Source: Gammaproteobacteria bacterium (GTDB lineage: Bacteria > Pseudomonadota > Gammaproteobacteria > Steroidobacterales > Steroidobacteraceae). From it: DNA of 64,000 bases. Location of the stretch: assembly GCA_030038755.1 (NCBI GenBank), contig JASHSK010000010.1:1-64000 (forward strand). Reading direction: 5' to 3'. The notes under the pieces were generated by a model. That model worked only from the letters and a program-made list of their open reading frames with translations. It was not told the origin of the DNA and did no database searches. A program made the translations under genes and the position numbers. The stretch's first letter is position 1. Each line of letters begins with the position of its first letter. Of this stretch, positions 61,137-64,000 are shown one piece after another.

Positions 61137-61784
61137 TCATCTCCGGCTCTGCATCAACGCCGCTGTGTGCAGCATCAGGAACAGCGGCACCATGAAGGCA
61201 GGAATCAGCAACAGCGGCAAGGTCGCCATCGCGCCCGTGCTAACCTCCCCCGGTGCCCCGGTGCTCAGTGCGGTCATCAGCGTTCCAATGCTGACCGCGA
61301 CGACCAGATCGAGTATGCCGAGCACATTCCAACGAATGAAGGCGGGTCGGGCGGCGAAGGTCGGGTCACGCACCAGCGCCAGCACGATCCAGGGTGCGGC
61401 AATGCCGATGGCCATGTCTCCCAAGCCAGCCGGCAGCGCAAATATGGCTGGCAGCACCTTGTGCGCGTACAGCGAGAGGAAGCCGAGGCCGGCCCAGCGC
61501 CAGGCCTGCATGCCGGCGATCAGACGCAGATCGATCGAGCGAATGAAGGTTCGAAATGACTCCGACAGTTGCAGCCAGAGGAAGAACAGCGCCAGGGGCG
61601 CCGCAAATCCGATACCCATGGCTATGGGAGGTGTCCCTGGACGTCCAACGAAGGCGCCGCTGGCACCGAGCGATACGACCAGTAGAAACCAGGCGGCCAG
61701 AACGGCGACCACGCTCCGGCGGATGCCGCCGAGCCCGGCAGACTGAAACTCGCCCGACCCGGAGACAAGGACTGTGGTGCTCAT
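61137..61784 (-). CDS. multi-TM hypothetical membrane protein
   Basis: About 6 hydrophobic segments; divergent from the HxlR gene. Confidence 0.7.
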   Translation of the reverse strand: MSTTVLVSGSGEFQSAGLGGIRRSVVAVLAAWFLLVVSLGASGAFVGRPGTPPIAMGIGFAAPLALFFLWLQLSESFRTFIRSIDLRLIAGMQAWRWAGLGFLSLYAHKVLPAIFALPAGLGDMAIGIAAPWIVLALVRDPTFAARPAFIRWNVLGILDLVVAVSIGTLMTALSTGAPGEVSTGAMATLPLLLIPAFMVPLFLMLHTAALMQSRR

Positions 61785-61805
61785 GGACTTTCTCCTGGAA
61801 GTGTA

Positions 61806-61861
61806 ACTTGCGTTGTGCAAGTCTATGCCTAATGTATCATCGTGACTTGCAGTCTGCAAGT
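61806..61861. promoter_or_regulatory. two operator-like dyads ACTTGC-N5-GCAAGT
   Basis: 61806-61822 acttgcgttgtgcaagt and 61845-61861 acttgcagtctgcaagt, in the divergent intergenic region. Confidence 0.85.
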
Positions 61862-61894
61862 CAGTGTGCTACTTGGGATCCTTGGAGAAGCACC

Positions 61895-62308
61895 TTGACT
61901 ACCCCAAAGCCGCTAACGCGCTCCGCCTGCGCGATCGCCAACTCTCTCGACATCGTCGGGGATAAGTGGTCGCTGCTCGTGGTGCGCGACATGCTGCACG
62001 GCAAGCACACGTACGGCGAGCTTGCGGATTCTCCGGAAGGGATTCCGACCAACATTCTTGCGGACCGCCTCAAACGACTGGAGGCGGCCGGGATCATTGT
62101 CAGTGCCCCCTATCAGCAGCGCCCAGTGCGATACTCCTACACCTTGACACCGAAGGGCCGCGCGCTGGGCGATGTGTTGCTCGCGTTCGTGCACTGGGGC
62201 AAAGAGCACATACCGGGTACGCTGACACTGAGCGAGGGGGCGGCGAGCGGTCGTGCTTCATCGCCGGCAGCGAAATCATCAAGCAGGCACGCAAAGCGCG
62301 GCGGATGA
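61895..62308 (+). CDS. HxlR family transcriptional regulator (TTG start proposed)
   Basis: SACAIANSLDIVGDKWSLLVVRDMLHGKHTYGELADSPEGIPTNILADRLKRLEAAGII. Confidence 0.88.
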   Translation: MTTPKPLTRSACAIANSLDIVGDKWSLLVVRDMLHGKHTYGELADSPEGIPTNILADRLKRLEAAGIIVSAPYQQRPVRYSYTLTPKGRALGDVLLAFVHWGKEHIPGTLTLSEGAASGRASSPAAKSSSRHAKRGG

Positions 62309-62691: not shown

Positions 62692-63558
62692 GTGCTGCTG
62701 ATCCGGATCAATCTGGTGCTTGTCGCGGTGCTGGCCCTGGCGGGGCTGGCGCTGGGGTGGGTCTCCTCCAGCATGCTCCAGGCCAACGCGACGCGCGAGG
62801 TGCTGCGCCAGGCGGAGCTGATGATCGACAGCGCGCTCGCCGTACGGGCTTACACCGCCAACGAGATCGATCCTCTGCTGGTCGATCAGATGCAGAGGCG
62901 CTTCCTGCCGCAGAGCGTGCCGTTTTACGCAGCCACGCAGAATTTCCTCAAGCTACGCGAGCAGCATCCCCAATACGCGTACAAGGAGGCGACCCTCAAC
63001 CCCACCAATCCGCGTGACCGGGCCACCGATTGGGAAGCGGACATCATTCAGCACTTCAGGAACGACCCCAAGGCGCTGGAGATCACCGGCCAGCGCGATA
63101 CGCCCACGGGTCGCTTGTTGTACGTGGCCCGGCCGATCCGTACCACCGCCGGATGCCTCGATTGCCATGGCCTGGCCAGCGCCGCTCCGGCCACGCTCAT
63201 CGCCCGCTACGGCCGCGACAACGGCTTCGGGTGGCAGGACAGCGAAGTGGTGGGCGCCCAGATCGTTTCGGCTCCCACCGCCGACGCCACGGCTGCTGCC
63301 GCCCACCTCTTTCATGGGTTTCTCGTCGCGATGATGCTGGTGTTGGTGGCCATCTGGCTGGCCGTCAACGCGCTGCTGTTCTTCCTGGTCGAGCGGCCGC
63401 TGCGGGGCCTGGCGCGCCAGGCCGATCTGCTGAGCGCCGGTGACATGACCGTTGCCGATTTTCCGGAACGCGGCGGCGGCGCAATCAGCGTACTGGCCCG
63501 CTCCTTCAATCGACTGCGGCGCAGCCTGGTCAAGGCTCTGGCGCTGCTCGAGTCCTGA
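62692..63558 (+). CDS. membrane sensor with DUF3365-type haem-binding domain and HAMP-like region
   Basis: GTG start; N-terminal TM; DPLLVDQMQRRFLPQSVPFYAATQNFLKLREQHPQYAYKEATLNPTNPRDRATDWE; CLDCH (CxxCH); second TM. Confidence 0.85.
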   Translation: MLLIRINLVLVAVLALAGLALGWVSSSMLQANATREVLRQAELMIDSALAVRAYTANEIDPLLVDQMQRRFLPQSVPFYAATQNFLKLREQHPQYAYKEATLNPTNPRDRATDWEADIIQHFRNDPKALEITGQRDTPTGRLLYVARPIRTTAGCLDCHGLASAAPATLIARYGRDNGFGWQDSEVVGAQIVSAPTADATAAAAHLFHGFLVAMMLVLVAIWLAVNALLFFLVERPLRGLARQADLLSAGDMTVADFPERGGGAISVLARSFNRLRRSLVKALALLES

Positions 63559-63564
63559 GCTCAC

Positions 63565-64000
63565 GTGCCGCACGATATCTTCATCAGCTACTCGCAGCCC
63601 GATCGTGACTGCGCGCTGGAGCTCACCGAGCACCTCGAAGCGGAGTGTCTGAGTGTGTGGATCGCGCCCCGCGATGTATCACCCGCGGCCGACTGGGCCG
63701 CCGAGATCATCGAAGCCCTATCGGTCGCACGCGTGATGGTGCTGGTGTTCTCCGCCAACAGCAACGAGTCGCCACAAGTGCGTCGCGAGGTGGAGCGCGC
63801 CGTGCACAAGGAGCTGCTGATCCTGCCGTTTCGCATCGAGGACGTGCTACCCTCGAAGAGCCTCGAATACTTCCTGAGCGCACAACATTGGCTGGACGCG
63901 TTTCCGCCGCCGCGCCAGCGCTACTACGGCCATCTGTGCGCGCACCTCAAGAGCCTGCTGAGCGTTGCGTCCGGCGCCGCCACAGCGAGCAGCGCTATGC
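63565..64000 (+). CDS. TIR-domain protein, truncated by window end
   Basis: GTG start 63565: MPHDIFISYSQPDRDCALELTEHLEAECLSVWIAPRDVSPAADWAAEIIEALSVARVMVLVFSANSNESPQVRREVERAV...HWLDAF. Not in the supplied ORF track. Confidence 0.9.
   Translation, partial: MPHDIFISYSQPDRDCALELTEHLEAECLSVWIAPRDVSPAADWAAEIIEALSVARVMVLVFSANSNESPQVRREVERAVHKELLILPFRIEDVLPSKSLEYFLSAQHWLDAFPPPRQRYYGHLCAHLKSLLSVASGAATASSAM

Follow-up and report, generated by a model that had tools for sequence, protein, structure and literature searches.

How signals travel onward from transmembrane receptors whose cytoplasmic part stops at a HAMP domain has so far remained unresolved for Af1503 of Archaeoglobus fulgidus, a model HAMP protein. 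The HAMP domain is the sole cytosolic part of Af1503, and its gene is translationally coupled to that of Af1502, a separate, monomeric protein (PMC4834066). The same source gives Af1502 as the structural example of STAC, a domain with an LGPx(x)A motif (PMC4834066). A second comparison is offered by SLC5-STAC histidine kinases such as CbrA, where STAC packs under the membrane domain and has been proposed to couple it to the kinase, as a relay from membrane domain to cytosolic effector (PMC13022988). On the input side, NO-binding sensors with an sCache_heme domain have recently been described, including a P. azotoformans protein with a TM-Cache-TM-HAMP layout; no operon or partner gene is mentioned in that study (PMC12889525). 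On the output side stand the NADase TIRs, among them SARM1, AbTir, Cat1 and SPARTA; nucleic acids or nucleotide signals activate those that act in phage defence, and NAD metabolites activate SARM1.

The locus described here resembles each of these systems in part. The window, meaning the whole stretch of DNA that was analysed, comprises the first 64,000 bases of a 68,238-base contig, and sequence past 64,000 was read on the contig. A preliminary description of the window had placed a DUF3365-like sensor, with a CLDCH motif, a HAMP-like C-terminus and no output domain, directly ahead of a TIR ORF and had suggested that the two may form a split signalling pair. The open reading frames confirm both positions and the gap of 6 nt between the sensor stop and the GTG start of the TIR gene, and the Pfam matches to Tll0287-like and HAMP bear out the domain assignments (Table 1). 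Like Af1503, the sensor ends after a HAMP domain, and that domain and its tail match those of Af1503; the coupled neighbour gene likewise carries a four-helix domain with a GPxA motif. The present pair is bacterial, however, its periplasmic input is a c-haem Cache domain, and the STAC-like domain, a stand-alone protein in A. fulgidus, is fused to a TIR, kinase or cyclase. The sensor shares its CXXCH input domain and its layout with the sCache_heme proteins, but its output half is a neighbouring gene. CbrA is one polypeptide with a transporter as input and a histidine kinase as output, whereas here there are two genes, a HAMP input and a TIR output. Finally, the TIR has the fold of the NADase TIRs and a conserved Glu that aligns with a Glu of Cat1, yet it lacks a sensing domain of their kind and is paired with a transmembrane receptor.

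Table 1. Features of the sensor-TIR locus; positions are those of the window unless the contig is named
Feature	Position	Strand	Evidence
Output-less haem receptor gene, GTG start, 288 aa	62692..63558	+	Pfam PF11845 E 3.3e-36, HAMP E 3.2e-4, orthologues
Tll0287-like (sCache_heme) domain, residues 31-195	62782..63276	+	Pfam
CLDCH c-haem attachment motif, residues 155-159	63154..63168	+	CXXCH in 81/81 aligned sensors
HAMP domain, residues 235-280, sole cytoplasmic domain	63394..63531	+	Pfam and Af1503 HAMP matches
Conserved tail at HAMP end, SFNRLRRSLVKALALLES	63502..63555	+	Common to kinase-, cyclase- and TIR-linked sensors
TIR effector gene, in-window part cut by window end	63565..64000	+	Full on contig to 64266, 233 aa
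TIR domain, residues 5-113	63577..63903	+	Pfam TIR_2 E 2.4e-21; fold match to TIR structures
Glu75 codon, candidate catalytic Glu in VRREVE	63787..63789	+	Kept in 30/30 TIR effectors
STAC-like C-terminal domain	contig 64066-64242, past window	+	Profile match

The architecture of the pair is firm. The reading built on it, which is considered probable and no more than that, is a split transmembrane receptor in which the HAMP domain of the haem sensor acts through a STAC-like adaptor on a TIR response, most likely NAD+ cleavage. The receptor, probably a dimer, would present a c-haem Cache domain to the periplasm and only HAMP to the cytoplasm, and the second gene encodes a soluble effector, with the TIR at its N-terminus and the STAC-like four-helix domain at its C-terminus. 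Ligation of the haem, most likely by NO, or a change in its redox state would alter the conformation of HAMP; the STAC-like domain would dock on, or otherwise read, HAMP and its conserved tail, and would thereby control the activity or assembly of the TIR. The coupling proposed for STAC in CbrA is a precedent for this role of the adaptor. Direct contact between HAMP and STAC is inferred, there being no structure of such a complex, and so is the physiological role of the pair.

The genes flanking the pair deserve brief mention. On the 5' side of the sensor (61137-62308) lie a divergent regulator of the HxlR type (Pfam HxlR, E 4.8e-22) and an ORF of 240 aa that matches nothing in Pfam; as far as seen, neither is kept with the pair in relatives. 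The next gene past the pair is convergent and encodes a TIR protein with a PD40/WD40-like propeller (contig 64750-67077); it is not counted in the unit. DNA from the 3' end of this gene recurs near the contig end, from about 68064, where a second copy probably follows.

The sensor runs from a first transmembrane segment through the periplasmic Tll0287/sCache_heme domain and a second transmembrane segment to HAMP and a short conserved tail. Its match to the Tll0287-like family is well above the cut-off. The HAMP match, at 21.4 bits, falls just below the gathering score of 25, and HAMP is nevertheless called because PDB matches to the Af1503 HAMP domain support it. Indeed, Af1503 is the best PDB match of this HAMP domain, tail included (SIERLRRSLKVAMESLE versus SFNRLRRSLVKALALLE), and the tail aligns with the end of the Af1503 construct. 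The C-terminus lies 8 residues past the HAMP match, leaving no effector module, as expected of an output-less receptor like Af1503.

What the haem responds to is a matter of inference. In the TIR-linked sensors there is no periplasmic Cys outside CXXCH, any other Cys being located within a membrane segment, close to one, or in HAMP. These sensors thus have no fixed Cys axial ligand, which favours gas sensing; judged from sequence, an exchangeable haem ligand fits, and both covalent c-haem and NO binding are inferred for this sensor. The receptor could be split exactly as proposed and still signal the redox state of its haem, or electron flow, in place of NO, and this is a serious contender without being the expected answer. 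Stand-alone sCache_heme proteins do behave in a redox-like manner (PMC12889525), and only one HAMP-ended member of the family has been tested for gases. From that member, a P. azotoformans protein, NO nonetheless dissociates slowly (koff about 6e-4 per second), and a stable complex with O2 does not form (PMC12889525), and the absence of a third periplasmic Cys in the sensors studied here also counts against a redox signal.

Read to its end on the contig, the TIR effector continues from the TIR through a linker into a C-terminal domain some 60 residues long. The preliminary description had placed a C-terminal partner domain beyond the window; a domain is there, but a small one, and a large C-terminal fusion is ruled out by the stop at 64266. 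The TIR scores 76.9 bits against Pfam TIR_2 (PF13676), for which the gathering score is 28. The earlier suggestion that the Glu typical of NADase-type TIRs may be present also held, since Glu75 is kept throughout the TIR effectors. SARM1 and AbTir carry a Trp four residues ahead of the catalytic Glu. The corresponding residue of the window's TIR is Gln71, and Gln is found there in 29 of 30 TIR effectors, which leaves the NADase activity of this TIR open; cleavage of NAD+ is inferred. In one relative, Rhodanobacter sp. C01 (L067), the TIR effector gene is broken into two ORFs, one of 125 aa with the TIR and one of 95 aa that is STAC-like, through either inactivation or a sequencing error.

The substitution of Gln for Trp is one of the observations that would suit a different output. 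The receptor may be split as proposed while its TIR is a non-enzymatic assembly domain, recruiting another TIR or signalling protein without cleaving NAD+. Structural matches of the TIR model include assembly-type TIRs such as MyD88 along with NADase TIRs, and further TIR proteins are encoded nearby. Such an output is judged unlikely, though, given that Glu75 is invariant in all 30 effectors, beyond what would be expected of a pure assembly domain, and that the kinase and cyclase counterparts occupying the same slot (see below) carry enzyme domains.

The C-terminal domain of the effector, referred to here as the adaptor, matched no entry in Pfam or NCBIfam; the families searched did not include the DUF accession PF26309. 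An AF2 model made from 87 sequences (pLDDT 96) has four helices, at 4-18, 21-30, 36-46 and 50-63, and meets the description of STAC as two hairpins that form a four-helix bundle. In the PDB, Af1502 is the one neighbour of this model that makes structural sense (5A1Q; TM 0.62-0.65, Foldseek E 2.4). STAC domains carry LGPx(x)A between helices 1 and 2, and in the 87 adaptor sequences GP is invariant and A is present in at least 90 percent; the window's protein has LGPVA. Af1502 is also the top PDB sequence for the adaptor profile, with weak scores of E 0.019 when divergent members are included and 0.16 for the narrow profile, and its segment LLDELKKEIGPIAKIFLNKAMES is in register with the adaptor consensus RELARHIGPLAKVLVKRAAAR. 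Homology to STAC therefore rests on scores that are individually weak (the Foldseek value and the better profile value included). The adaptor is called STAC-like because fold, motif, register, receptor type and gene adjacency all agree. The name STAC refers to an association with SLC5 transporters and two-component domains, both of which Af1502 itself lacks. No such association was seen for the adaptor, which was found only with HAMP receptors and with TIR, kinase or cyclase effectors; for this reason the domain is named STAC-like and is not filed as STAC.

What the preliminary description missed is a connection through this domain, which the sensor family's kinase and cyclase effectors carry as well. 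It emerged from a profile built solely on the last 58 alignment columns, those of the C-terminal region, from six TIR effectors. Scanning 85,462 species genomes yielded 533 sensor relatives, and the best 80 of these were kept for analysis of their neighbours. The profile detected the adaptor in the effector gene beside the sensor at 73 of these 80 loci; six of the others are cut by contig ends beside or inside the effector gene, and the seventh, an acidobacterial locus (L126), is unresolved. TIR effectors contain one copy of the domain, kinases and cyclases mostly two, and one effector three.

The distribution of the adaptor can be followed independently of these sensors. It is present in 24 of 276 genomes sampled across the class and adjoins an ORF ending in HAMP with the conserved tail in 22 of 22 that could be evaluated, G222 and G310 being cut by contig ends. 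Five apparent exceptions (G159, G184, G283, G379 and G419) dissolved when HAMP-ended ORFs were found beside each adaptor. Among the 30 best Tll0287 loci, the adaptor accompanies 17 of 18 sensors with the HAMP tail (the eighteenth lies at a contig end) and none of the 12 without it. Uncut TIR proteins that bear the adaptor have a HAMP-tailed ORF within about 1.5 kb; for TIR proteins of relatives that lack it (L005, L011-L025, L027-L032), no such ORF was found within about 1.5 kb on each side. Taken together, these patterns indicate that the adaptor tracks output-less HAMP receptors and not TIRs or Tll0287 domains as such.

Divergent copies of the adaptor in G159, G184 and G419 (L150, L152 and L151) lie beside output-less HAMP receptors whose input is not Tll0287. 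By our own reading, without a profile test, this input resembles a double Cache domain, and the three receptors suggest a class of split receptors wider than the haem sensors. The adaptors in these genomes appear to be fused to DUF4388-type or roadblock-type proteins. In G283, the adaptor is fused to an apparent ACT domain (L142:185-1032) and adjoins what is left of a receptor truncated at the contig start, its HAMP end.

The pair itself is conserved. Close TIR orthologues lie directly 3' of close sensor orthologues in five of the 148 relatives searched (G009, G015, G070, G072 and G079), with gaps of about 4 to 11 nt. Counting the window's own genome, the two genes are adjacent and in the same order in six genomes from one family group, which is more than chance would give. 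The pair is also kept in three further groups, Dyella/Rhodanobacter and Massilia/Duganella among them, so that the preliminary idea of a split sensor-TIR pair, for which loss of the pair in relatives would have been the refuting outcome, is supported.

Within the best 80 of the 533 sensor relatives, the neighbour is a TIR in MAGs of the window's kind and in Dyella, Rhodanobacter, Pinirhizobacter, Massilia and Duganella. Ser/Thr kinases take this place in Accumulibacter, Zoogloea, Polaromonas, Methyloversatilis and others, and class III cyclase-type proteins do so in further MAGs. At three loci (L102, L112 and L128) a single haem sensor lies between two effectors that share the adaptor, with a Ser/Thr kinase on its upstream side and a class III cyclase on its downstream side. 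With kinases and cyclases on the same adaptor and beside the same sensor family, the TIR is one output among several that can be exchanged. The kinase-sensor-cyclase arrangement was also observed at G226:C325 and G335:C54, and a Polaromonas locus (L088) encodes a single effector with protein kinase and Guanylate_cyc matches and two adaptor copies.

Effector type requires 6 changes on the sensor tree, compared with 33 in shuffles. Two origins of the TIR-linked sensors, as drawn in a quick tree, were not upheld; a single clade is not rejected (p-AU 0.62), so the TIR may have been acquired once. Mirror-tree correlations are 0.92 for sensor and STAC and 0.86 for sensor and TIR, values that fit co-inheritance but do not separate it from common descent, and they are not used as proof.

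Adjacency is by itself no proof of contact, and the two genes could be co-transcribed while their products do not interact directly, the C-terminal domain serving another use such as effector oligomerisation, for which the two copies in most kinases and cyclases would be suited. This is improbable. The domain stays beside HAMP-ended receptors through changes of effector, of input domain and of gene order, and Af1502, to which it is likely related, is monomeric, forms a protein by itself and is coupled to a HAMP receptor (PMC4834066). The effector is upstream of, or convergent to, the sensor in some loci, and adjacency kept across gene orders argues for a partnership beyond operon order. In two Acidobacteriota loci (L093 and L114), for instance, the kinase effector is convergent to the sensor, with 3' ends facing, and still adjacent.

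By the criteria for Thoeris, SPARTA and CBASS-TIR, neither ThsA, pAgo or CD-NTase partner genes nor a SAVED or APAZ domain occur within or beside the pair, which rules out a known defence system of these kinds. That the TIR belongs to anti-phage defence and the sensor is a chance neighbour is very improbable: PADLOC models for Thoeris, Ago-TIR and SAVED-TIR match weakly and to the TIR part alone, defence partners are absent, sensor and TIR are adjacent in every relative having both, and the sensor is retained throughout, including where the effector is a kinase or cyclase.

A search of the literature, limited to open papers, turned up neither an account of STAC-like effectors that have a TIR, kinase or cyclase as output nor a paper on a TIR paired with a HAMP receptor. 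That a STAC-like domain stays beside HAMP receptors while the attached effector varies points to STAC as the reader of HAMP, a question now testable in culturable bacteria (Dyella, Rhodanobacter, Massilia and Zoogloea). More tentatively, two-gene transmembrane receptors may be a general class in bacteria, with output-less HAMP sensors that would act through a STAC-like adaptor on an exchangeable Ser/Thr kinase, class III cyclase or TIR; the TIR branch would then be a TIR controlled by a membrane receptor, a split analogue of Toll-like receptors that NO or redox state in the periplasm would gate and that would consume NAD+. The split receptor would also bring a TIR output under the control of a defined environmental receptor, a kind of trigger beyond the nucleic acids and nucleotides known so far, and would provide candidate partners for the recently described NO-binding, HAMP-ended haem sensors. 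The whole has the look of a bacterial plug-in receptor to which a TIR output of the immune type can be attached.
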